Shown here in pieces: positions 1,203 to 30,403 of a DNA stretch of 30,443 nucleotides. The DNA is from a virus. Numbering within the stretch: the stretch's first letter is position 1; each line of letters starts with the position of its first letter. The stretch covers positions 1-30,443 of the IMG/VR virus record IMGVR_UViG_3300033149_007244, one strand, 5' to 3'. Under the pieces are notes generated by a model. That model made no database searches. It saw only the letters and a program-made list of their open reading frames with translations, and was not told the origin of the DNA. A program made the translations under genes and the position numbers.

Positions 1203-1892
1203 CTATTCCCAATCTATTCCAAAGCGATAATAAAGCTCTGCATTAGCTTGCCTATAGTACTCAGTAAGAAAGTCAACAACCTCTTTATCAGGCTTTGGGT
1301 AAGTTTCTTTCTTTTTCGGATTCTTTTTCTTTGGGTCATAATAAGAAGCTTTCAGTATCCGAGTCGGCAGCCCGAGAAAAAAATAGAGAATCTCATTAAC
1401 AACAGCCACCGGTTGTCTAAAAAATTTTTCAGATTTGATAATGACAAAGCACTCTTCATCAAAAATACTCAACCATCGTTCTAAATAATCAACGTATCTG
1501 CCTCTTTTCAAGACTTCTGAATCGGGATTGAACAGGTCTGATTTCGGTATCTTATCTTTCCAATGCCAATAATTTGACCATGCCCTCTCTATCGGATTCC
1601 GTAATAAGATAATGAAATGATGGCTTTGCTCCGGAATATCTGTCTTGATTCGTATCGGTGCTTTCTCTGAATAGAGATAGCCGGGAGTCGTATCAAATGA
1701 TAGGCTGATTTCTCTTTCTGGGAAGTATGATTCATAATGCTTCAGACCTTTTGAGTACTGCTTGTCATTATCAAAAAAATGAATCTCTTTTTTTCTTGCT
1801 GGCAGTATCTCCGGTACTGAATTCAGCATGACCCTCAATGAATTAGTGCCTGAGCGGCTAGCACCGATGATAAAGAAGTCAGGTAATCTCAT
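1203..1892 (-). CDS. sulfotransferase (PAPS-dependent, heparan N-sulfotransferase-like fold)
   Basis: The 229-residue product has the two PAPS-binding elements of sulfotransferases: a 5'-phosphosulfate loop at residues 9-19 (IGASRSGTNSL) and the 3'-phosphate site RNPIERAWSNYWH near residues 98-110. Between them are KEIHFFD and DTTPGYLY, typical of carbohydrate sulfotransferases. The likely reaction moves sulfate from PAPS to a sugar hydroxyl or amine. I chose the ATG at 1892 because it sits one base below the previous stop and directly before the P-loop strand; an upstream in-frame ATG adds 14 basic residues without family support. The gene ends with TAG-GGG-TAG. It is unusual in a replication-side operon; a second sulfotransferase lies at 24523-25173. 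Confidence 0.85.
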   Translation of the reverse strand: MRLPDFFIIGASRSGTNSLRVMLNSVPEILPARKKEIHFFDNDKQYSKGLKHYESYFPEREISLSFDTTPGYLYSEKAPIRIKTDIPEQSHHFIILLRNPIERAWSNYWHWKDKIPKSDLFNPDSEVLKRGRYVDYLERWLSIFDEECFVIIKSEKFFRQPVAVVNEILYFFLGLPTRILKASYYDPKKKNPKKKETYPKPDKEVVDFLTEYYRQANAELYYRFGIDWE

Positions 1893-1893
1893 C

Positions 1894-2070
1894 TTACATC
1901 TCTTTATTCTTTTCACTAAGCACTTCAATTGCATCTTTCAGCTCTTCAATCTCACTGTCTCTATTCTCTTTTGTCTTATTAACATCCCAATCGACTTGAT
2001 GATATTGTAGGTTTTGCAAAAACCTCAACCTTAAAAGAAGCTGCCTTATGGCTCTCTTGAATCTTTTCAT
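1894..2070 (-). CDS. small hypothetical protein, basic N-terminus and acidic helix
   Basis: The 58-residue frame begins at an ATG that overlaps the RNase HII stop in an ATGA junction. It has a strongly basic first half (KRFKRAIRQLLLRLR) and an acidic, heptad-like second half (EIEELKDAIEVL). A longer reading from 2103 would run deep into the RNase HII gene. It ends one base before the sulfotransferase start. No family is recognised; a helical adaptor is only a guess. Confidence 0.5.
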   Translation of the reverse strand: MKRFKRAIRQLLLRLRFLQNLQYHQVDWDVNKTKENRDSEIEELKDAIEVLSEKNKEM

Positions 2071-11000: not shown

Positions 11001-11165
11001 ATGAAAAAAGATATCTTCAGACATGATGGCAAAAACTATGTCTTTCTTAGCTTCTTTGGTGGGGATTCAAAAATCTACGGTAGAGGCAAAGAGAGAATCC
11101 TTGTTGAGAATGGTAGGGTATTAATACATTATTCAGACCCAGAAGCCAGAAGAGTTAATGTTTAG
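11001..11165 (+). CDS. hypothetical protein, 54 residues
   Basis: An ATG at 11001 with AAAAAGGAG upstream opens 54 codons (MKKDIFRHDGKNYVFLSFFG ... EARRVNV) to TAG. The product looks like one small beta-rich domain. Its stop overlaps the stop of the convergent glycosidase gene at 11162, so the two operons meet end to end with no gap. Confidence 0.55.
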   Translation: MKKDIFRHDGKNYVFLSFFGGDSKIYGRGKERILVENGRVLIHYSDPEARRVNV

Positions 11166-12265
11166 CTTTCATTATATTTCGATAAGACCTCTGAAGCAAT
11201 CTCAAGGTATTTATAATAAGGGCTGCCTTCGGCATCTTCACAATTATCTGAACCAAAACCGGGAACACGAAATCCGTAATAATTCACAAGCTGAGCGCCA
11301 TGCTCCAAAGACTTCTCAAAAATAAACTTAACGCCCGATAATCCCAGCTCTTTTCTATCAAAAAACTCATTCCTTCCAATAGGCTTGTCATAATGTTTAT
11401 AGCCCAAGATCCAATCATTGTCCTCATGATTCTGGTACGGCCAGTGCCTGTGTACTTGAATAATACTGACAATATCGTATAAACCTTTTTTCTTGGCATA
11501 GTCAGCATACTTTTCACCACCTGCGCCAATAGCACCACCAGAGACAATGAGACCTTGATTTCTGAGATTCTTAGCAATGCTGATTGCTCCATCGACATCA
11601 TCTTCTGCATAGAGTTCGTTCCAACACTCGTAGATTATATTTTTCAGGTCTTTCGTTGCTTCAACAGTCTCTTCTATACTGCCTAAATCTCTGACACTAT
11701 CTTTTAAGGTAAGCTCAACAACAACATTTTTTTCATACATCCTTTCGCAGAAGCTTCTAACAAGCTTTGGGTCGTTACAGATATCTGTTCTCAAGTAGTT
11801 CAAACCATATTTATGGAATTCTCTCTCAGCCCAAGTTAGACTGTAATTCTTACCACATCTGCTCCAATGTTCCCCTTCCTGCCCTGCCTCAAGGCAGAGC
11901 GCTTCTCTTCTCCAGACACCGATGCCAATAAATCTTTCTGTCCCATTGTTCTTGAAATAGAGAGCGCCATCCTTAATCAGCAGCCTAGAGGGAAGCGACT
12001 TTCTGGCACACTCTTCATACTTATTTTTCCAGTAACTTAGTTTCTCCTTCAGCTCATCTGCTGAATTTTTAAGGTAATTATTCTGTGCTTTCAAGAGAGC
12101 AATCTCTTCTTTATGCGCTTCTCTTATAATTTCAATTCTTGAATTACAATCCGCCTGCGATTCCTTAATCCTCTTCTCGCATAAATGTTTCATTTGGTCT
12201 TCTAACAGCTTCAATTTTTTGCGGCAGTTTTTCAGGCATCCAAATATTTCACAAAAAAAGCTCAT
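11162..12265 (-). CDS. glycoside hydrolase-like protein with N-terminal coiled coil (tail-borne depolymerase candidate)
   Basis: The 367-residue product has a coiled-coil front (about residues 15-90) and then a (beta/alpha)8-type domain: FIGIGVWRREAL, the strand LNYLRTDIC, VVVELTLKDS, then IYECWNELYA with E217 in a W-N-E motif like the acid/base of clan A hydrolases (GH5-like), and later KPIGRNEFF with E300 as a nucleophile candidate. Clan A enzymes cut beta-linked sugars. It is the last gene of the tail operon, just after the fibre, so the coil may attach it to the tail tip. An endolysin role is possible but the fold argues for a surface-glycan target. Confidence 0.6.
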   Translation of the reverse strand: MSFFCEIFGCLKNCRKKLKLLEDQMKHLCEKRIKESQADCNSRIEIIREAHKEEIALLKAQNNYLKNSADELKEKLSYWKNKYEECARKSLPSRLLIKDGALYFKNNGTERFIGIGVWRREALCLEAGQEGEHWSRCGKNYSLTWAEREFHKYGLNYLRTDICNDPKLVRSFCERMYEKNVVVELTLKDSVRDLGSIEETVEATKDLKNIIYECWNELYAEDDVDGAISIAKNLRNQGLIVSGGAIGAGGEKYADYAKKKGLYDIVSIIQVHRHWPYQNHEDNDWILGYKHYDKPIGRNEFFDRKELGLSGVKFIFEKSLEHGAQLVNYYGFRVPGFGSDNCEDAEGSPYYKYLEIASEVLSKYNES

Positions 12266-21960: not shown

Positions 21961-22404
21961 TTACGGTGGAAACTCCGTCGCAAGACTCAACACGAAATTA
22001 CATGAAAATACATACAATCCTTTTTCATTAGGATTCTCTATTACAGCCGGCAAACCAACTGCATTTATTACCATAGCACAATAAGGGGGACCGCCGTCAA
22101 CTGCCGGCAGCGCCCAGCCTGCTGTGCCATGTATTGATTCATAGATGCAATATGCATCATCTCTAGCTTGCATGTAACTCTCAGCTCTGTTCCATATCTG
22201 TAATGATTTCTCTTCCCAGTCAGGTAAGTCTGGCACAACTGTACCAGGTGAAGTTTCTAATATGACAACACATCTTCTCGGTGGGTCAGTGCCTGCAGGT
22301 GTCTTTACAGGCAGTGAGCCGACAAAAAGATTTGTGCCTATAGTCAAGTCACAGCCACTGAGGCTCTCGATGAATGTTGCTATGGATTTCAGCACTGTAT
22401 TCAT
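21961..22404 (-). CDS. tail terminator protein
   Basis: The 147-residue product has the alpha/beta layout of tail terminators: a first helix (VLKSIATFIESLSG), a strand with FVGSLPV, a RRCVVILETSPG strand, the YMQARDDAYCIYESIHG helix and a final beta strand (GLYVFSCNFVLSLA). It caps the tail tube and joins it to the head. The start overlaps the HK97 gp10-like stop as ATGA. Gene order supports the call more than sequence alone. Confidence 0.7.
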   Translation of the reverse strand: MNTVLKSIATFIESLSGCDLTIGTNLFVGSLPVKTPAGTDPPRRCVVILETSPGTVVPDLPDWEEKSLQIWNRAESYMQARDDAYCIYESIHGTAGWALPAVDGGPPYCAMVINAVGLPAVIENPNEKGLYVFSCNFVLSLATEFPP

Positions 22405-22796
22405 TGCATTGCCTCTTTTATATATTCTGCAACTTTCTTCATATACTTTCTCATATTCTTCTCAAGCTTTGACTGCAAGTATTTCGGCCCTGAGCCTGGT
22501 TCTGACCAATTCCAATTTGTCGGTGCTTCATGCAATCTTGCTGCATATTCAGTATTGAAGCCAAAGACAATGCTGATTCCTTTTCTTCCTATCTGAGCCT
22601 CCCCGATTGCCTGCTCTCGACGTAATGTACCTGATTTTTTCGGTACAGTAGGCTGCTCACTCACAGCATCAGCTAGCACAAAAGCAGCGACCTTCTCTAG
22701 TGCTGCTGCTGACTCAGTCTTATGCTTTTTTAGATACTTCTCAAAGCCTTTATCAAATTCTGAGAAATCCATGTAAAGCCCAGTTTTTTTCTTCAT
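22401..22796 (-). CDS. HK97 gp10-like tail completion / neck protein
   Basis: The 131-residue product shows the pattern of this family: a long front helix (DFSEFDKGFEKYLKKH), VPKKSGTLRREQ, a VFGFNTEYAARLHEAP segment, and a C-terminal helix ending AEYIKEAMQ. Such proteins act at the head-tail joint or in tail completion. It overlaps both neighbours by ATGA junctions. Confidence 0.8.
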   Translation of the reverse strand: MKKKTGLYMDFSEFDKGFEKYLKKHKTESAAALEKVAAFVLADAVSEQPTVPKKSGTLRREQAIGEAQIGRKGISIVFGFNTEYAARLHEAPTNWNWSEPGSGPKYLQSKLEKNMRKYMKKVAEYIKEAMQ

Positions 22797-23095
22797 TTCA
22801 CATAGACCTCTATATGATGCAGAGCTGCTGAGTTCTGTACTTTTCTTATTTCAACAATTGAGTACTTTGTTCCGTTAAATCTGATAATATCTTCATGGCC
22901 GATACTCACTGATGTATCAAAAAAGAACTTACCTGTGCTCAGGATTTCTTCTCCTTCAATGTTTCTTATTAATTTGTGATGTCTCATATATCTACACTTG
23001 ATATTGTTTTGGGTAGTCTCTGAAGGCTCATTCCACTTGTCAAATGTCCGCTGTATGATATCACAAGTATTTATCAGAAGTCCTGTATATGACAT
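22793..23095 (-). CDS. head-tail stopper (adaptor) protein
   Basis: The product of about 100 residues begins MSYTGLLINTCDIIQR and ends ALHHIEVYVK, with DIIRFNGTKYSIVEIRK between. That final pattern is common in small beta-barrel stoppers of the SPP1 gp16 / HK97 gp7 kind, which close the portal channel. It starts at ATG 23095 (or GTG 23098) over the stop of a glycosyltransferase gene, so it is tied translationally to the glycan cassette rather than to the connector gene. Confidence 0.7.
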   Translation of the reverse strand: MSYTGLLINTCDIIQRTFDKWNEPSETTQNNIKCRYMRHHKLIRNIEGEEILSTGKFFFDTSVSIGHEDIIRFNGTKYSIVEIRKVQNSAALHHIEVYVK

Positions 23096-24036
23096 CACAG
23101 ATGCTCCTCAATCAAAGTTCTCAACTGTCTGACTCTGTTTCTAACACTGTGATTATTTCTTACATATGAGCATCCATCTTTTCTAATAGCCGAAAAAGCA
23201 TGCGGCTCTATCAGTACAGCTTCAATCTGAGCAAACATGTTGACTTTAGATATAGGCACATAATGAGCCCACGGAATAAGACCTGCTCTATCAATGTCAG
23301 GTGTTCTAACACCGAGAAGAAGAGAGCCAGCTGCAGGAATTTCAAAGTACTTAGCAAGACCATAATGATAGACTGAGTCAGTTGCTACTGAACAGAAATA
23401 TTTATTTAAAGTCATTGCATAGCTTTCATTGATACAAGCTTTAATCTCCCAACGGTTTAGTGGCGAAGGGTCATACCATCTAGGGTGACGCATCACTACA
23501 AAGAGCCGTCTATATTCTGATTTTTTAGGAATCGTATTTATTATCTGATTTCTCAGAGGATAAAGCTTAGCGTTCTTGTGTCCCGTCATTAAACATTTAT
23601 TGATTGGGTTTTTTTGAATTCTAAGCTTTGTGTACCTATTATGTGGTGCGAAATATAAAGGAAAGAATACGAATCTTTTTTTATATTTAGGAAATCTCAA
23701 GCTAAACTGATTAAAATAAGTCACGAGCAGCAGGTCTGCTCTCTCTGCTACTGGCTTCATCACCTGCTCTTTGAAGCTGTGAGCACCGGTCAGAAGATAG
23801 ATTATTTTTGGTAATTTAAGGCTCAAAGATTCAGAGAGCAATTCTTTACCATGAACGCCTGCATATATGAAGAGGATATCAGCATTCTTTGCATCATCAG
23901 TGAGATGTGCAGAATAGATGACATTGAAGCCGAGCGTCCGCTTCACAGAGCGAAAGAAGTTTCTGACTCTATCTGATACTCTGCTTGTCAAAAATATAGG
24001 ATGCAGATATGCAACTCTTTTCAATGTTTTCTCCAT
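23095..24036 (-). CDS. glycosyltransferase, GT-B type (CgeB / GT1-like C-terminus)
   Basis: The 313-residue product has a Rossmann-like first half (LGFNVIYSAHLTDDAKNADI, then KIIYLLTGAH). The second half has LMTGHKNAKLYPLRNQI, then VVMRHPRWYD and GLAKYFEIPAAGSLLLG, the F-E-x-x-A-x-G-x-L-L signature of GT-B enzymes that read a sugar nucleotide. It is the last gene of the glycan cassette and overlaps the stopper start and the methyltransferase end (16 bases). It should add a sugar to a glycan or protein; donor and acceptor are unknown. Confidence 0.75.
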   Translation of the reverse strand: MEKTLKRVAYLHPIFLTSRVSDRVRNFFRSVKRTLGFNVIYSAHLTDDAKNADILFIYAGVHGKELLSESLSLKLPKIIYLLTGAHSFKEQVMKPVAERADLLLVTYFNQFSLRFPKYKKRFVFFPLYFAPHNRYTKLRIQKNPINKCLMTGHKNAKLYPLRNQIINTIPKKSEYRRLFVVMRHPRWYDPSPLNRWEIKACINESYAMTLNKYFCSVATDSVYHYGLAKYFEIPAAGSLLLGVRTPDIDRAGLIPWAHYVPISKVNMFAQIEAVLIEPHAFSAIRKDGCSYVRNNHSVRNRVRQLRTLIEEHL

Positions 24037-24536
24037 GCAATGAGATTTGAACCTCTGCGGTTTTTCTTGCCGAGAGTTGAGGTCTTAAAACCAAGCTCTT
24101 TGAAGAATTCCGGGTATAGATGGCTTCTATGAACTTCATACGGATTTCCCTTTACTGCCTGTTGAACATACCGCCCCCATGGGCAAGCAAGCATGAGAAT
24201 CTTTTTCGTATGTTTGAATAGCTCATTAAATATGTTAGGTAATAACTCTTTCTCTACATGCTCAGGCCCATGCCACCACATCACAACATCAAAGCTCGCA
24301 AGCGGTATTTTGTTCACATTTCTTACATCGGCTTGAATGATATTAAATCTTGGATCTTGTCTATAGTATAGGACATTTTCAGTCCAAGCTTCCATAATCG
24401 TCACCTCATAATCTTTCTTTACGAAATAAGACAGCATCTCATTCCTTGCTATGCTCGCACCGATATAGAGTAGAGTCTCATAGTCCAGCAGATCTGGCAC
24501 GGCAGCAAATGCCTGTCTTGCTCTAGCTAAATTCAT
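24021..24536 (-). CDS. class I SAM-dependent methyltransferase
   Basis: The 171-residue product begins with LLDYETLLYIGASIARNEM, a short form of motif I, followed by VTIMEAWTENV, NIIQADVRNV and the post-motif segment FDVVMWWHGPEHVEKELL. These fit a compact methyltransferase with the usual strands 1-4. In the cassette it probably methylates a sugar or glycolipid. It overlaps the sulfotransferase gene by 14 bases and the last glycosyltransferase gene by 16. The Gly-rich loop is weak, so activity is not certain. Confidence 0.65.
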   Translation of the reverse strand: MNLARARQAFAAVPDLLDYETLLYIGASIARNEMLSYFVKKDYEVTIMEAWTENVLYYRQDPRFNIIQADVRNVNKIPLASFDVVMWWHGPEHVEKELLPNIFNELFKHTKKILMLACPWGRYVQQAVKGNPYEVHRSHLYPEFFKELGFKTSTLGKKNRRGSNLIAWRKH

Positions 24537-25173
24537 TCAGCCTCTCCCGATGATGCCAGAGTGAAGCATCAATGAATCTCTCTATTGACTCAGTGTTACC
24601 AGGTATTCTCAAGCCTAAGAAGCTGCAAACCTTTTCAAGCTCTGATCGCCAGTCAGAGAAGTAGTTATGATAGTATGTCCTTATATGAGGCAAGTACTTC
24701 ACATTCTTTTCAGCTTCAGAGCAGTAAAAATTATACAGCTCCCTACATTTTTGTACTGTAAACTTATTCCTCTTCTGCAAGCTCATGGCCACTTCTATGA
24801 ACGGTCTAAACACCAGCACAACCCTCAGCTCTTCTGGCTGTATTACCTGCTGCCAAAACTTTAGTGTAAGACAAGCCCTCGGATCTTTCCATCCGACTGC
24901 TCTGTCAGCAGGCCATTTTGCAGCAAATTGGGACATCTTCTCAATCAACCACTGAGGCACTTTGCTCACAGGCTTGCATTCTCTCCAGCTCGTCTTGTTC
25001 GCTTTGAGGATTTTGATGTTCAAACCAAGAAATTCTCTGTCTTCATAATGACCTTTCCGATTATCTCTCAGCCCATCGAGCAGATTATTACCAAGATAGA
25101 GGCCGCAGAGCTGAAGTAAGCCAGCAACCATTGAAGTGCCTGAGCGGTGCATGCCGCAAATTATAACCTTCAT
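24523..25173 (-). CDS. sulfotransferase of the glycan cassette
   Basis: The 216-residue product starts with the PAPS loop IICGMHRSGTSMVAGLL (residues 4-20). It then has GHYEDREFLGLN, a VGWKDPRACLTLKFW segment (KDPR at 96-99, a common pattern in bacterial glycan sulfotransferases) and VVLVFRPFIEVAMSL, the 3'-phosphate strand with R123. It should transfer sulfate from host-made PAPS to a sugar. Its ATG follows directly on the TAA of the gene before it. Together with the sulfotransferase at 1203-1892 it makes two such enzymes in the window, of clearly different sequence. Confidence 0.85.
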   Translation of the reverse strand: MKVIICGMHRSGTSMVAGLLQLCGLYLGNNLLDGLRDNRKGHYEDREFLGLNIKILKANKTSWRECKPVSKVPQWLIEKMSQFAAKWPADRAVGWKDPRACLTLKFWQQVIQPEELRVVLVFRPFIEVAMSLQKRNKFTVQKCRELYNFYCSEAEKNVKYLPHIRTYYHNYFSDWRSELEKVCSFLGLRIPGNTESIERFIDASLWHHRERLNEFS

Positions 25174-25560
25174 TTATTTCCTAACCTCAAAGACAATGAA
25201 CTTTCTTTCACCATCATTGAACAACACAACCGCTGCCTTGATGGAAAAGAACTTCCAAAGCTCTTGTCTGAATGCTTGCTCTTGGTGATAGTACTGAGTG
25301 CCCTTGAAATCGAATGATCGCTTTGTCCAAACGCCAAGAGCAGCAACGGCGGATCTCTTCATAACTCTCGCATATTCTCTGAGACCCTGCCTGTAGTTGA
25401 ACATCCTGCTGAGAGGACCGAAAGAGACAAGCGCAGTGATGCTGCTGTCAGGATTAGAGAGAACTAGCCTGCCGTTTCTGATATCATTCTTTGTTGACAG
25501 CAATGTGAGTTTTTTTCTTCCGAATATTTTCTTTTTGATTTTCTCTAACTCTCTTCTCAT
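25174..25560 (-). CDS. short methyltransferase-like protein lacking the SAM-binding front
   Basis: The 128-residue product has a segment ITALVSFGPLSRMFNYRQG followed by LREYARVMKRSAVAALGVW, which looks like the post-motif and helix D region of class I methyltransferases. The usual first half with the Gly-rich SAM loop is missing. The front (RRELEKIKKKIFGRKK) is basic helix. I chose the ATG at 25560, which overlaps the previous stop as ATGA. It may be a trimmed, non-catalytic partner or a decayed enzyme; the family call is weak. Confidence 0.4.
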   Translation of the reverse strand: MRRELEKIKKKIFGRKKLTLLSTKNDIRNGRLVLSNPDSSITALVSFGPLSRMFNYRQGLREYARVMKRSAVAALGVWTKRSFDFKGTQYYHQEQAFRQELWKFFSIKAAVVLFNDGERKFIVFEVRK

Positions 25561-26372
25561 TGTAATCTCTCCAGACAATGATTAATCCAGTCGATTACTT
25601 TGACTGGTGTACAGTACTCTTTGAACAGCTTTTTTGCCTGAATACCTATTTTGATGCATGAGTCTCTATCATTGATGCACTGCTCTATTACACTGAGTAT
25701 ATCAGAGTAGTCATCTCTGCAAGCAATATAATGAACGCCAGGCTTCAGCTCTTTCCAATACGGCAGCACGATATCAAGCTGCGGTGAGATGGTACAAGCT
25801 CCGAACGCCATGTACTGAAACTGGCCTCTATCCAGGATGTCATTCCTAGCACCAGGCACGCATACGGATACAAGACACTTATTCACTTTTTTCCAGAATG
25901 CTTTTTTGCCAGTGAATGATGTATCAACTTGTCCGCCGTACCACTCTTTGAGCCTGTACTGGACAAACCTTCTTCTCTTGAGAGCAGCTGCCCCAGGTCG
26001 CTGGTTGCTGAGAATCATGCCGTTTGCATTGTATCTGAGCATCTTCTCAAGCTTGAGATACTCAGTCCAGTCGTAGAAGCTTATCGGTGTCAGAGGGAAA
26101 GTGTTCTTTAGCTCTTTGTGCCTTTTCCGAGAATAATGAAATCTGAATTGAGCATCATACTTTGGATAGTCATCAGCCACGGTGAGATGATCACCAAAAT
26201 CGATGAGGATGCTTCTGTCTCTGTAGCACATGACAAAGCCTCGGCCCTTTCTCTTATCATGGTAGAGCTTCACTTCAACACCCGCTGCTTTCAACAGCTC
26301 AATAACAAACTTGTAATGAGTGTCATAGTATCTCTGACCTGTGTATTCAGGTACATAAGCTATATTATTCAC
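25557..26372 (-). CDS. glycosyltransferase, GT-B / GT90-like
   Basis: The 271-residue product has a donor-side half with DRGQFQYMAFGACTISPQLD and PGVHYIACRDDYSDIL, the pattern of CAP10/LpsA-like (GT90) and CgeB-like transferases, where a conserved R/E pair holds the sugar nucleotide. The first half (YRDRSILIDFGDH, FRFHYSRK) is a smaller acceptor-side domain. It starts at GTG 26372, overlapping the previous stop by GTGA. It lies in the middle of the cassette; sugar and acceptor are unknown. Confidence 0.65.
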   Translation of the reverse strand: MNNIAYVPEYTGQRYYDTHYKFVIELLKAAGVEVKLYHDKRKGRGFVMCYRDRSILIDFGDHLTVADDYPKYDAQFRFHYSRKRHKELKNTFPLTPISFYDWTEYLKLEKMLRYNANGMILSNQRPGAAALKRRRFVQYRLKEWYGGQVDTSFTGKKAFWKKVNKCLVSVCVPGARNDILDRGQFQYMAFGACTISPQLDIVLPYWKELKPGVHYIACRDDYSDILSVIEQCINDRDSCIKIGIQAKKLFKEYCTPVKVIDWINHCLERLQ

Positions 26373-27012
26373 GCCAGCTCTCCCAAAGCTTTAAGTCTTT
26401 TTTTACCCAGGTCAGTGACAAGCTCAAAATTGTGTCCCCAAAACAGCTTCTTCTCTCTTCTCAGCTTCATCGTCTCAAAGTCTCTGTCTCTCACTTTGTG
26501 AGCAGCTCTCCATGTTTTGTCTCTTAGCCTTTTATGATGTACAAGAGCCGATTCACAATAGCCCCATTTATTGATGTTTCGTGCGAATCGGCCGAGCTCG
26601 AAATCGCTTGAGTAGTGAACAAAGTCAGGACAGAACACACATCTGTGCGGAAATCTTTCTTGATATTCTGCCTGATGCCGATGAGCCCATCTGTATCAGG
26701 AAACTTCTCTCTCAGCATCTTTACAGCTTTTTCAATACAGTCTTTCTCAAAGATTAAATCATCAGAGGCATAGAACACAGCATCATCCCTTGCGTACTGC
26801 AAAAGAGTATTCATAGACATAACAAAGTCTTTTCTATTTTTATTATAAATCAAACAAACAGGCAGCTTGGCAATAGTATGCAAAATGCTCTCATTGCCAT
26901 CTACTGCTATGAATACTGAAATATCTTTATATGAGGAAGCTCTAAGGCTTTGTACAGTCGCCTTCAATGTGTCAAGCCTGTCAAAAGTGCTTATCAGCAC
27001 ATCAACTTGCAT
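26369..27012 (-). pseudogene. family 2 glycosyltransferase (GT-A) split by a frameshift near 26674
   Basis: From the ATG at 27012 the frame gives MQVDVLISTFDRLDTLKATV, then VFIAVDGNES and FYASDDLIFEKDC (the D-D metal and nucleotide site), clear GT2 features, up to GLIGI near 26674. The true continuation lies in the -1 frame: QAEYQERFPHRCVFCPDFVH, SSDFELGRFARNINKW and a helical end to 26369. Joining the frames gives about 214 residues. Left alone, the first frame runs on to 26524 with unrelated sequence. No slippery heptamer is seen, so a one-base deletion or sequence error is likelier than programmed shifting. The shift must lie between about 26697 and 26640. Confidence 0.7.
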
Positions 27013-27880
27013 TGATGAGCCTCCTATATGCTCGTTTGTATTTCTGCACTGTGTCAATGGCATGATAGTTCTGAAGCACCCATAGTCTTGTTCTTTCTTG
27101 TATGTCGGCAAGCATAGCAGATGAATCAATCAACTGCAGTAGTCTTTCTTCAAGTGTGTCAAGATTGGCAAATACAAATGGCACTTTCTTTACTCTGTTC
27201 AGCACAGCACAGGCAAAACATGCGCCCTCAAGTGAGGTGCGATGCCAGTTGCCTGTAACAACATCATCAATAAGAATATGGCTGCTCTGTTTCAATCTGA
27301 GATTCTCTCTGTAGCTCCTGCCTTCAATCCAGATTATTTCAACTGCTCTCTTTCTTGCAACCTCATCAAGGACTTTCTTAACCTCATAATAGCCCTTACT
27401 GCTTCGATGAGCAGGCGACAGCTTCGTTGTCGGAGCGAATGCTACCCTCACAGTTGATGCCCTTTTTATCGGCCTGTATTCATCTGGGTCGATCACATTC
27501 GGCAGCGCTGGCAGCTTATACTCTTTCTCCTGCAGCGGCTGACTTATTGTGTAACAGACATCGGCAAGCTTCATGAGCTCATGCCAGTTGCCAAGCCGTG
27601 GGACCGAGTGAAACTGAGCAAGTATTTTCTGAGAGCTGTGGAAGGAGGCAAGCTCTCTGTGCCAGTAGTTGTTAACATGCCAGATATCTGCTTTTTTCAA
27701 TGCTATAGATGCTGTGCCGTTCATTGAGAGCAATAGATGATAGGGGAATACTCTACCATCAGCATAACGGAAAGTCTGATTGATAAGAGATACATCTAAG
27801 TTAGTATACTTCTTCAGTGCTTTAAACAGTTCCCATGGTGCTGCTGCCAACGGTGTTCTTGAGAAGATAGCTACCTTCAT
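27002..27880 (-). CDS. glycosyltransferase, GT4-like (GT-B)
   Basis: The 292-residue product opens with VAIFSRTPLAAAPWELFKAL, the usual first strand and loop of GT4 enzymes. It then has ADIWHVNNYWHRE, LAQFHSVPRLG, VCYTISQPLQ and LPNVIDPDEYRP, a classic GT4 hinge pattern (P-N-x-I-D), followed by VRVAFAPTTKLS and a C-terminal SLEGACFACAVLN segment in place of the usual E-x-x-A-x-G-x-P. It should build a glycosidic bond using a nucleotide sugar. It overlaps the cupin gene by ATGA and the GT2 gene by 11 bases. Confidence 0.75.
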   Translation of the reverse strand: MKVAIFSRTPLAAAPWELFKALKKYTNLDVSLINQTFRYADGRVFPYHLLLSMNGTASIALKKADIWHVNNYWHRELASFHSSQKILAQFHSVPRLGNWHELMKLADVCYTISQPLQEKEYKLPALPNVIDPDEYRPIKRASTVRVAFAPTTKLSPAHRSSKGYYEVKKVLDEVARKRAVEIIWIEGRSYRENLRLKQSSHILIDDVVTGNWHRTSLEGACFACAVLNRVKKVPFVFANLDTLEERLLQLIDSSAMLADIQERTRLWVLQNYHAIDTVQKYKRAYRRLINAS

Positions 27881-28227
27881 TTCTTTCTCATGCCTCCCTG
27901 AGTTCTTCTCTCAATATCTGGGTCATGCAATAACACTTGATACATCTCTATGACTTCTGAGTCTTCAAGAGCTTCAAAACAATGCCAGAGACCGGGCGGC
28001 ACAGCACTCACCTGACCCTCTTTCAATGTAGTCACATCTTTCATACTCTTATCCCGCCAGATGGTTATCTTCAGCTTGCCGGAGATGATATAAAAAATAT
28101 TGTATTTATACTCATGTTTATGCTCTGAGCAGTAGCCTCCCTGCTTTATACTCAAATGATGAGCAGAGACAAGAGCATTGCGAAAGAATTCAGTTGTCTG
28201 GCCCCAGACTTTACCTTGTGTCTTCAA
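27877..28227 (-). CDS. cupin domain protein (sugar-nucleotide or sugar-phosphate enzyme-like)
   Basis: The 116-residue product is one cupin barrel: KVWGQTTEFFRN, LSIKQGGYCSEHKHEYKYN with HxH and E as metal ligands, an IISGKLKITIW strand, a VPPGLWHCFEALEDSEVIE strand with the last His, and a short tail. The start resembles the C-terminal cupin of mannose-6-phosphate isomerase / GDP-mannose pyrophosphorylase, so it may act on a sugar precursor. It starts at TTG 28227, overlapping the stop of the DUF115 gene by TTGA, with GAGGTG upstream. Confidence 0.7.
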   Translation of the reverse strand: MKTQGKVWGQTTEFFRNALVSAHHLSIKQGGYCSEHKHEYKYNIFYIISGKLKITIWRDKSMKDVTTLKEGQVSAVPPGLWHCFEALEDSEVIEMYQVLLHDPDIERRTQGGMRKK

Positions 28228-28928
28228 TGAAGCACCTCACTAATTGATTTTTTCTCAAAGCAGTTTATAGCAGAATCAGGGCATAAATTGATGACTCTGA
28301 TGCCTTTTGCTTTGATGACAGAAGCTGACTTCTCAAAGAATCTTACAAAGTCATTCACTATTTTTTCTGACTGAGGCGCAGGGTGGCCGTCATGCCAGTG
28401 TGTTCTATTGTTTGAGAACTTACAATCAAAACCGAGCAAGTAAATCGGGTTAGCACCTAGACAAGCTGCAATATTCAGTGCTGCATAGCCTGAATTATTA
28501 CCATGTCCGATGCCTTCTTTCAGACTCCATGTGAATGCTCTGAGGCCGGCTCTATAGTGCTTGTATACCTTGATGATATAGATATAGTCTGGCAGCTTCA
28601 CTGTGTATGTACAGAGCCAGACCCTGTAAGAGCGAAGCGAAAGAAACCTATCTCTAGCAGCACTCCCGTATTTATCGTTAAGTAGCCATTTCAAGAATCT
28701 AGTATCCATTGAGAACATCACTGTCGGCTCAAACTTCTCAAAAGCTCTATTGATGCCGATTGTCCTTTTGCCTTTGAGAAGATGCCAATCAAAATCTACC
28801 AGGCTCGGTCCGCCACCAACTATGAAGCATGGCTTATTTTTCCAAGAGCCATCTGGCAGCACCTCCCAAAGAAAGCGGTTGACAAGTCTGTCACTTCTGT
28901 ACAGTGTTGCTCTCTCTGCTGATATCAT
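28224..28928 (-). CDS. DUF115 / MptE-like Rossmann protein
   Basis: The 234-residue product has the DUF115 hallmarks: PCFIVGGGPSLVDFDWHLLK, then RTIGINRAFEKF, VMFSMDTRFLKWL, then GNNSGYAALNIAACLGANPI, LLGFDCKF and THWHDGHPAP. Family members include MptE-like pterin kinases and the Maf-type motility factors that put sugars on flagellin, and phage copies often sit by head or tail genes. It is the first cassette gene and overlaps the connector stop as ATGA. Its place beside glycosyltransferases favours a sugar-linked role, but the reaction is unknown. Confidence 0.75.
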   Translation of the reverse strand: MISAERATLYRSDRLVNRFLWEVLPDGSWKNKPCFIVGGGPSLVDFDWHLLKGKRTIGINRAFEKFEPTVMFSMDTRFLKWLLNDKYGSAARDRFLSLRSYRVWLCTYTVKLPDYIYIIKVYKHYRAGLRAFTWSLKEGIGHGNNSGYAALNIAACLGANPIYLLGFDCKFSNNRTHWHDGHPAPQSEKIVNDFVRFFEKSASVIKAKGIRVINLCPDSAINCFEKKSISEVLH

Positions 28929-29554
28929 GGCGTCTGAATAATTGGCTTTTTCTGCTTCATGTAAGCTCTGAGTATGATATCAACCTTTGGAATGCCTGTA
29001 TAGATGCCCTTCTTGGAGTAGCCTTCGATGCCGATTTTGTAAGAGTAGTCACCTATCTTTTCACTTTCAAACATACCGACAGATGCAAATGAGCCTTCAT
29101 TGATTGCATCAACCAAGTAGATAGCTGCTTTCTTTATCGGCTCTGGCACTGTGCTGTAGCCTGAAGTACCGACTATCCTGATATTGTTGTAGCCTCTCGG
29201 AAAGATACCTTCATTTGCTTCTTGAGAAAGGACATAGTAGTACTCAGAAAGCGCAACGCCAGACTTGCACAGATCAAGATAGATAGAGTTCTCATCAAAG
29301 CCGTACCATGTCGGATCGAGCTCATAGCCGCACACATAGACAGTTGACACACTGATGATATTTGCATGAAGCGGCGGGAAGACTCTATTCTTGCCGTTGC
29401 CGTTGATATAGATGTCAAAAGGCTTTTCATAGAAATGAGTGCTGGTGGTTTTTTCAATGAGCTGTTCTGCAAACTTGATAGTATTCTCTTTGCATGCGGC
29501 ATCACAACCTGAAGGCCATGAATCTATATCAGACGGGTCAATATAATTTCCCAT
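28925..29554 (-). CDS. head-tail connector protein (gp6 / adaptor-like)
   Basis: The 209-residue product has a helical front (CKENTIKFAEQLIEKTTST), a beta part with SVSTVYVCGYELDPTWYGF, and the end PEPIKKAAIYLVDAINEGSF ... IPKVDIILRAYMK. This end pattern is typical of head-tail connectors of HK97 gp6 type, which form a ring under the portal. The ribosome site AGGAGC precedes the ATG. In related phages the stopper gene follows at once, but here about 5.8 kb of glycan genes come between. Confidence 0.75.
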   Translation of the reverse strand: MGNYIDPSDIDSWPSGCDAACKENTIKFAEQLIEKTTSTHFYEKPFDIYINGNGKNRVFPPLHANIISVSTVYVCGYELDPTWYGFDENSIYLDLCKSGVALSEYYYVLSQEANEGIFPRGYNNIRIVGTSGYSTVPEPIKKAAIYLVDAINEGSFASVGMFESEKIGDYSYKIGIEGYSKKGIYTGIPKVDIILRAYMKQKKPIIQTP

Positions 29555-29589
29555 AGAAAGCTCCTGTCAACCCTTCACAAGGAGAAAGC

Positions 29590-29625
29590 AGAGAGAAGAA
29601 AGAGGCCACTCTCTCTCTTCTCTCT
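29590..29625. repeat. inverted repeat between the virion protein and the connector gene
   Basis: AGAGAGAAGA (29590-29599) is the exact inverted complement of TCTTCTCTCT (29616-29625), with a 16-base purine/pyrimidine-rich centre that can extend the stem. It lies in the 93-base gap after the LamG-like gene and could be an RNA processing or attenuation stem within the late operon. No clear T run follows on either strand. Confidence 0.45.
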
Positions 29626-29647
29626 ACCTATCTTTTATGTCTTCCAA

Positions 29648-30403
29648 CTATTCGATGACTCTCTGCTGCACGCACTTCAGATAATCAATGTCCAAGTAAT
29701 ATGCATCAGCCGCATCGTTTCTGAGGCCGAAGCCGATATTCATCTCTTCATCTTGACAGATATGAGTAGTCACTGAGCCGGTAGCGATGCAGTACTGATC
29801 ACTGTCTCTGAACACAAACCAGCGGATAGTGCCCTGGCCATCCCAATGAAAGCCTATCCTGTACCATGTGTCATCTTCTAGGTCGAGTGTCGTATCAACG
29901 TCTGTAGCGACGCCGTCAACAGCGGTGGAAAAATACAGATCATCACCGCCATCATCAACATGAAAAACTACATAGTCATTTGGAGCTGTGAAGAACTGAT
30001 TGCCAGTGACAAGCCCGAACCAGAAAGAGCTGTTGTCCGGGTCTTCAACCTTGAATCTAATCTCTGCATAGAGCGGATAACCGTCAACCAGCTTCCAGCA
30101 CTCGCAGCCATAAACAAGCTCATCTTGATCATCTGCATCACCAGCATTAGTTATTCTCAATACTCCGTTGACTACATCAGTGCAGGCCTCAGTAGCAGAG
30201 CCGGAGCCTCTTTCAGTAGTGGTGACTGTCCAGCAGTCTGAATCATAGCAGCAGAAATCTAGCTCTAACCGGTGAGCATCCTGAATGGTGAAGCTTCTGA
30301 ACCAGTCCCACTTATCGTGATTTATATGATAGTTCAGAAAATATATGTCTCTGATGAAGAGCTCTTTGGCATTGTCATCAATGTTAGCATGTGGAAATTC
30401 CAT
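29648..30403 (-). CDS. LamG/concanavalin-like virion protein
   Basis: The 251-residue product starts MEFPHANIDDNAKELFIRDI and then folds as a beta jelly roll: LELDFCCYDSDCWTVTTTE, VVNGVLRITNAGDADD, YAEIRFKVEDPDNSSFWFGL, YVVFHVDDGGDDLYF, WYRIGFHWDGQGTIRWFVF and YYLDIDYLKCV. This is the pattern of LamG or concanavalin-type sugar-binding domains. It is acidic and lies just before the connector gene, where capsid or decoration proteins are usual. A decoration protein that binds surface sugars is likely; the exact position in the virion is unknown. A strong GGAGG site fixes the start; the gene ends in TAG. Confidence 0.65.
   Translation of the reverse strand: MEFPHANIDDNAKELFIRDIYFLNYHINHDKWDWFRSFTIQDAHRLELDFCCYDSDCWTVTTTERGSGSATEACTDVVNGVLRITNAGDADDQDELVYGCECWKLVDGYPLYAEIRFKVEDPDNSSFWFGLVTGNQFFTAPNDYVVFHVDDGGDDLYFSTAVDGVATDVDTTLDLEDDTWYRIGFHWDGQGTIRWFVFRDSDQYCIATGSVTTHICQDEEMNIGFGLRNDAADAYYLDIDYLKCVQQRVIE

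Follow-up and report, generated by a model that had tools for sequence, protein, structure and literature searches.

A variable glycan-type gene locus fixed in the neck gene block of an uncultured lineage of tailed phages

The viral contig analysed here (30,443 bases, hereafter the window) belongs to a lineage of uncultured, siphovirus-like tailed phages in which a locus of glycan-type genes is fixed within the neck gene block. The constant part of this locus consists of a DUF115 gene and other glycosyltransferases, and a sulfotransferase is a common, not universal, component. The explanation that we favour, and regard as probable, is that of a lineage-specific glycan-assembly locus in the neck operon that decorates a virion protein and adds sulfate where a sulfotransferase is present. 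What appears to be new is a neck locus that is fixed throughout a lineage yet expandable, together with its sulfotransferase; no description of it was found in the literature searched.

Gene order and predicted enzymes

The right part of the window is read from the minus strand and carries, in order, genes for a LamG-like protein, the connector, nine glycan-type proteins, the stopper, neck1, a terminator-like protein, the tube, a chaperone and the tape measure (Table 1). The separation of connector and stopper by nine glycan-type genes, claimed in a preliminary description of this DNA, was confirmed with PHROGs for the neck proteins and with Pfam and modelling for the cassette. The connector is 83-90% identical to those of close relatives, and in a 48.9-kb relative the genes follow one another as terminase, portal, MuF, ligase-fused prohead protein, scaffold, capsid, LamG-like protein, connector, cassette, stopper and tail.

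Table 1. Features of the neck region and the glycan-type cassette in the window
Feature	Position	Strand	Basis
Hairpin in the LamG-like/connector gap; upstream edge of the connector-cassette-tail block	29586..29629	-	RNA fold z -2.9
gp6-like head-tail connector, flanking the insertion site upstream	28925..29554	-	PHROGs phrog_442, E 1.7e-13
DUF115/MptE-like, GT42-sialyltransferase-like protein; constant first gene	28224..28928	-	Pfam PF01973 7e-9
Small cupin	27877..28227	-	Cupin_2 9e-11
GT-B fold, GT4-like retaining glycosyltransferase	27002..27880	-	AlphaFold2 pLDDT 85.6; Foldseek
GT2 glycosyltransferase, frameshifted in the window	26369..27012	-	Glycos_transf_2 1.9e-13
GT90/POGLUT-like glycosyltransferase	25557..26372	-	AlphaFold2 pLDDT 88.5; Foldseek
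Half-length methyltransferase-like protein	25174..25560	-	Alignment A12; dN/dS 0.16
PAPS-dependent sulfotransferase-like protein	24523..25173	-	Motifs: 5'-PSB loop GMHRSGTS, WKDPR, 3'-PB R...S..R
SAM-dependent methyltransferase-like protein	24021..24536	-	Methyltransf_25 3.3e-4; dN/dS 0.08
GT-B-type glycosyltransferase (Glyco_trans_1_2)	23095..24036	-	Pfam 6.7e-5, just under cut-off
Stopper/head-closure protein; downstream flank of the insertion site	22793..23098	-	phrog_793 9e-7, phrog_161 0.001
Neck1	22401-22796		PHROGs phrog_5

The DUF115 gene belongs by its own Pfam family to the MptE-like proteins, and the only consistent structural matches of its profile (A10), to the GT42 sialyltransferase CstII, are weak (E 0.0019-0.005). 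The cupin is possibly a sugar-nucleotide or sugar-phosphate isomerase or epimerase. Two cassette proteins, GT4-like and GT90-like, were submitted to the modelling proposed earlier because they had no useful Pfam match. The GT4-like model resembles 2jjm, BshA and PglA in Foldseek (E about 1e-9, TMq 0.64-0.76) and, by its predicted GT4 fold, is a typical GT-B enzyme; the best match of the GT90-like model is the human protein O-glucosyltransferase POGLUT2 (9w47, E 3.6e-7), with a TMq of only 0.54 and a profile match at E 0.0018. Sequence searches of the PDB with the sulfotransferase, GT4 and GT-B profiles gave no matches.

The PAPS-binding motifs of the sulfotransferase are kept in all 13 aligned members, with R123, S131 and R135 invariant. 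The window protein matches Sulfotransfer_3 at 1e-4 (score 23.1, cut-off 27) and scores 21.8 against Sulfotransfer_1 (cut-off 22); since both values lie under the curated Pfam cut-offs, it is named sulfotransferase-like. Sulfotransfer_3 is matched at E <= 0.01 by 10 of the 13 family members (best 3.6e-7), and the cassette sulfotransferase had no match in 50,697 phage records. APS kinase was absent from the nine phage records searched, so that PAPS should be supplied by the host; the enzyme is present in the one bacterial genome bin holding such a phage contig.

A second sulfotransferase (1203-1934; Sulfotransfer_1 1.7e-18) is encoded with a radical SAM-like protein in the segment 372-1934 of the window, where an RNase HII gene adjoins. 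It is found near RNase HII also in the relatives G001 and L017, and sulfotransferases of this kind lie elsewhere beside the portal gene or within the cassette.

A fixed site with variable content

Further contigs were recruited by scans with alignments of the sulfotransferase, GT4, connector and capsid, and duplicates were removed. Close relatives (10 loci and one overlapping pair, with sulfotransferases 67-87% identical) have identical genes in identical order wherever the contigs reach. Across the lineage, the gap between connector and stopper is filled with glycan-type genes in all 22 distinct contigs that span it, from about 19 metagenomes, and measures 2,808 to 8,947 bases with 92-100% coding. 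DUF115 is the next recognised gene past the connector in 39 of 41 readable contigs, and a cupin comes first in one more (40/41). Among contigs readable beyond the connector no empty site was found within the lineage; the remaining contig is that of the nearest outgroup, L109 (capsid 49% identical), in which the head-closure gene directly overlaps the connector and the site is empty.

The suggested search for sulfotransferase plus glycosyltransferases in the connector/stopper gap has in this way recovered such cassettes from many contigs. Rather than occurring at varying sites, the block stays at the same neck site within the lineage (22/22 spanning contigs), and an assembly chimera is ruled out by identical junctions recurring in many independent metagenomes. 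The divergence of cassette genes tracks that of the capsid (Mantel r 0.48-0.85), which indicates that the locus is mostly vertical in inheritance. Comparison with isolated phages yielded no DNA match, and capsid matches only at ~25-27% identity. One Desulfobacterales genome bin contains a capsid match; as this is only one of 389 genomes of the class, a Desulfobacterales host assignment was not adopted.

Cassette content varies in a manner reminiscent of a serotype locus. The extras seen among contigs include a duplicated GT2, additional methyltransferases, GT9, LicD, an epimerase and a radical SAM protein, and the close relative L007 has an extra glycosyltransferase-like gene (1385-2269) inserted precisely at the junction of the methyltransferase-like and sulfotransferase genes. 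The window-type sulfotransferase occurs in 11 of the 22 spanning contigs, with other sulfotransferases in L071 and L045. The term "sulfoglycan system", applied to the cassette at the outset, is too strong for the core, as roughly one half to two thirds of the cassettes have a sulfotransferase.

Intactness and selection

The reading of two cassette genes is revised here. The "split" GT2 is one gene with a 43-base frameshifting deletion in the window copy, placed between 26660 and 26659 by DNA alignment with six relatives; all relatives covering it have one intact gene of ~235 aa. The short methyltransferase-like ORF is half-length and faster-evolving and is present in all close relatives, and so is not debris of this contig; divergent relatives retain an RVLRPGG-type motif. 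For eight of the nine cassette genes (GT2 left out) dN/dS is 0.05-0.16, as against 0.05-0.07 in adjoining neck and tail genes, and the cassette genes are under purifying selection. Pseudogene debris is ruled out by the low dN/dS together with the intact GT2 of relatives. Deletions a few tens of bases long also occur within the GT90-like and GT4 genes of L001 and L009, and these similar cases suggest that some of the deletions are assembly errors.

These data bear on whether the block might be cargo, that is, a moron or auxiliary metabolic island trapped in the operon with no role in the particle. Variable gene content would suit such cargo, as would the fact that P1 can do without its homologues under laboratory conditions, but strong purifying selection, fixation in the entire lineage and the failure to find an empty member inside it make this very improbable.

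Transcriptional context

All the way from connector to stopper, neighbouring genes overlap by 0-16 bases or abut directly, as originally reported, with successive overlaps of 4, 4, 4, 11, 4, 4, 0, 14, 16 and 1 bases. A hairpin occupies the gap between the LamG-like and connector genes in all 10 contigs examined (the window and nine relatives), with diverged sequences, and a strong stem was found there in 9/9 relatives folded (z -2.1 to -4.8). In L045 it takes the form of a classical terminator, complete with a U run, and in phage PMG1 a terminator is annotated 3' of the capsid gene. The hairpin may keep the connector-cassette-tail unit at a lower level than the capsid. A consensus promoter scan gave 17 matches against 17.2 expected, and neither promoter-like nor terminator-like matches exceeded their frequency in shuffled sequence; the earlier remark that no internal promoter was seen is compatible with the consensus scan, although a scan of this type neither proves nor excludes one. 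The late-operon location of the cassette informs timing, not target.

Possible targets of the putative glycan

The preliminary description allowed for either the virion or the host surface as the target. The virion has since gained indirect support from the lack of multi-pass membrane proteins, from cassettes adjoining probable capsid genes in other lineages and from comparison with D3/PAJU2 and mycobacteriophages, and the host surface has been weakened. Glycan export to the cell surface normally needs a flippase or a lipid-carrier enzyme. By a simple hydropathy test, no multi-pass membrane protein was found among 167 cassette proteins (the window GT2, read there in a wrong frame, is to be disregarded), which favours a cytoplasmic target, namely virion proteins, over the host surface. 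In other phage lineages, related DUF115-GT2-sulfotransferase-methyltransferase cassettes lie directly 3' of a probable capsid gene, identified as such by position, its only match being phrog_24071 of unassigned function.

Remodelling of host surface glycans late in infection, via host lipid carriers and flippases and leading to superinfection block or release, would be in keeping with the well-known serotype conversion by phages, and the GT, LicD, epimerase and methyltransferase families of the cassette are shared with bacterial surface-glycan loci. We consider it improbable nonetheless: serotype-conversion sets encode membrane proteins (GtrA/GtrB, Wzx, Wzy), no cassette protein is multi-pass (0/167), and late co-expression with the neck is poor timing for a surface change. 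The gtr cassettes of temperate phages resemble the neck cassettes in bringing together phage-borne glycosyltransferases with variable content, but they encode a membrane flippase and bactoprenol transferases, and neither a membrane flippase nor a lipid-carrier transferase is present among the 167 neck cassette proteins.

Hypermodification of phage DNA bases, by glycosylation and sulfation through the cassette enzymes, has a precedent in the glycosyltransferase and sulfotransferase base-modification systems predicted for phages (Iyer 2013, as cited in PMC10829341), and members of the lineage do carry DNA methylases. Against it, a search of 10 phage records detected no thymidylate-synthase-like base hydroxymethylase while control genomes scored positive, and the cassette sits in the neck operon, apart from replication genes; this possibility is accordingly a very slight one. 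A Tet/JBP search gave no match, the control being likewise silent.

A glycosylated virion could also be combined with a sulfotransferase that acts elsewhere, on protein tyrosine or a small molecule. The sulfotransferase is missing from some cassettes and has no close solved relative, and the second sulfotransferase of the window (1203-1934) lies outside the cassette, all of which would agree with such a division of labour; where present, however, the cassette enzyme sits among glycan genes, in other phage lineages too, and a separate target seems unlikely. Provided that a virion glycan exists, its sulfation is quite probable.

Proposed mechanism

Under the favoured explanation of a decorated virion, transcription would start at or pass through the hairpin upstream of the connector, and the enzymes, to judge from the observed location of their genes, would be synthesised at the same time as the neck and tail proteins. 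The assignments to enzyme families suggest that the DUF115 (GT42-like), GT4, GT2, GT90-like and GT-B proteins would draw on host sugar nucleotides in the cytoplasm to make a short glycan in place, on a virion protein undergoing assembly, that the cupin and methyltransferases would adjust the sugar, and that the sulfotransferase, where present, would transfer sulfate from host-made PAPS. The likely acceptor would be a protein of the capsid, neck or tail tube, or the LamG-like protein. The LamG/concanavalin-like protein (29648-30403) is encoded between capsid and connector in most lineage members, and is a possible glycan carrier or binder. Different cassette content would result in different coats per phage, as in bacterial serotype loci. 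It is tempting, if still speculative, to view the cassette as a phage "serotype locus", at which the lineage keeps and swaps whole glycan pathways, PAPS-dependent sulfation included, at a fixed neck-operon site and thereby acquires distinct sulfated coats.

Relation to known systems

Glycosylation of phage virions is known from few cases, which usually involve one to three genes, and we know of no sulfated-glycan coat described for a tailed phage. In mycobacteriophages, capsid and tail-tube proteins are glycosylated by phage glycosyltransferases (Freeman et al. 2023, cited in PMC11652166, PMC12619734, PMC11600133), and in cluster O an O-methyltransferase gene adjoins the glycosyltransferase (PMC11652166, PMC12619734, PMC11600133). 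Phage-encoded glycosyltransferases, a methyltransferase neighbour (cluster O) and the virion as proposed target are shared features, whereas the present cassette is far larger, with DUF115, a cupin, often a sulfotransferase and a fixed neck-operon site.

Among cultured phages, the Pseudomonas phages D3, PMG1, PAJU2 and IME307 share with the lineage a neck region in which a DUF115 relative, a GT9-annotated gene and a methyltransferase occur among adaptor, head-closure, neck1 and terminator genes; they differ in having three such genes, located in the head closure/neck1 gap or after the capsid gene, and no sulfotransferase. In P1, a region annotated as morphogenetic likewise encodes a DUF115-type, sialyltransferase-like protein (pmgO) and a glycosyltransferase (pmgQ), but without a large cassette and away from the neck junction. 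The dispensability of pmgO in a laboratory CRISPRi screen (PMC10695390) fits decoration and is no proof of it.

The theme is wider than first supposed, extending to the D3/PAJU2 mini-cassettes and P1 pmgO. The original statement that such a system is not described holds, within the literature searched, for the neck cassette with a sulfotransferase, but the neck and morphogenesis DUF115 genes of cultured phages had already been annotated, without function. On sulfated phage virions, the literature searched contained nothing on point. If the proposal is correct, a sulfated serotype-locus coat would be the first such coat known for a tailed phage, sulfation would join the chemistry of the phage particle, and the fixed, variable multi-enzyme neck locus would mean that phages maintain a coat-diversity locus of their own. 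The D3/PAJU2-type mini-cassettes and P1 pmgO open this question to cultured phages.

Other features of the window and related contigs

A protein of 1,100 aa encoded between MuF and scaffold in L013/L014 (contig 3300021492_000030, 19662-22964) seems, on reading its sequence, to fuse metallo-beta-lactamase-like and DNA-ligase-like domains, and its length is highly variable in relatives. In a different phage, a MuF-like protein (L011:7357-9246) has an apparent intein insert. The tail-fibre region of the window encodes a protein (11162-12265) that by eye resembles a glycoside-hydrolase barrel, without a Pfam match, and that is ~79% identical in L017.
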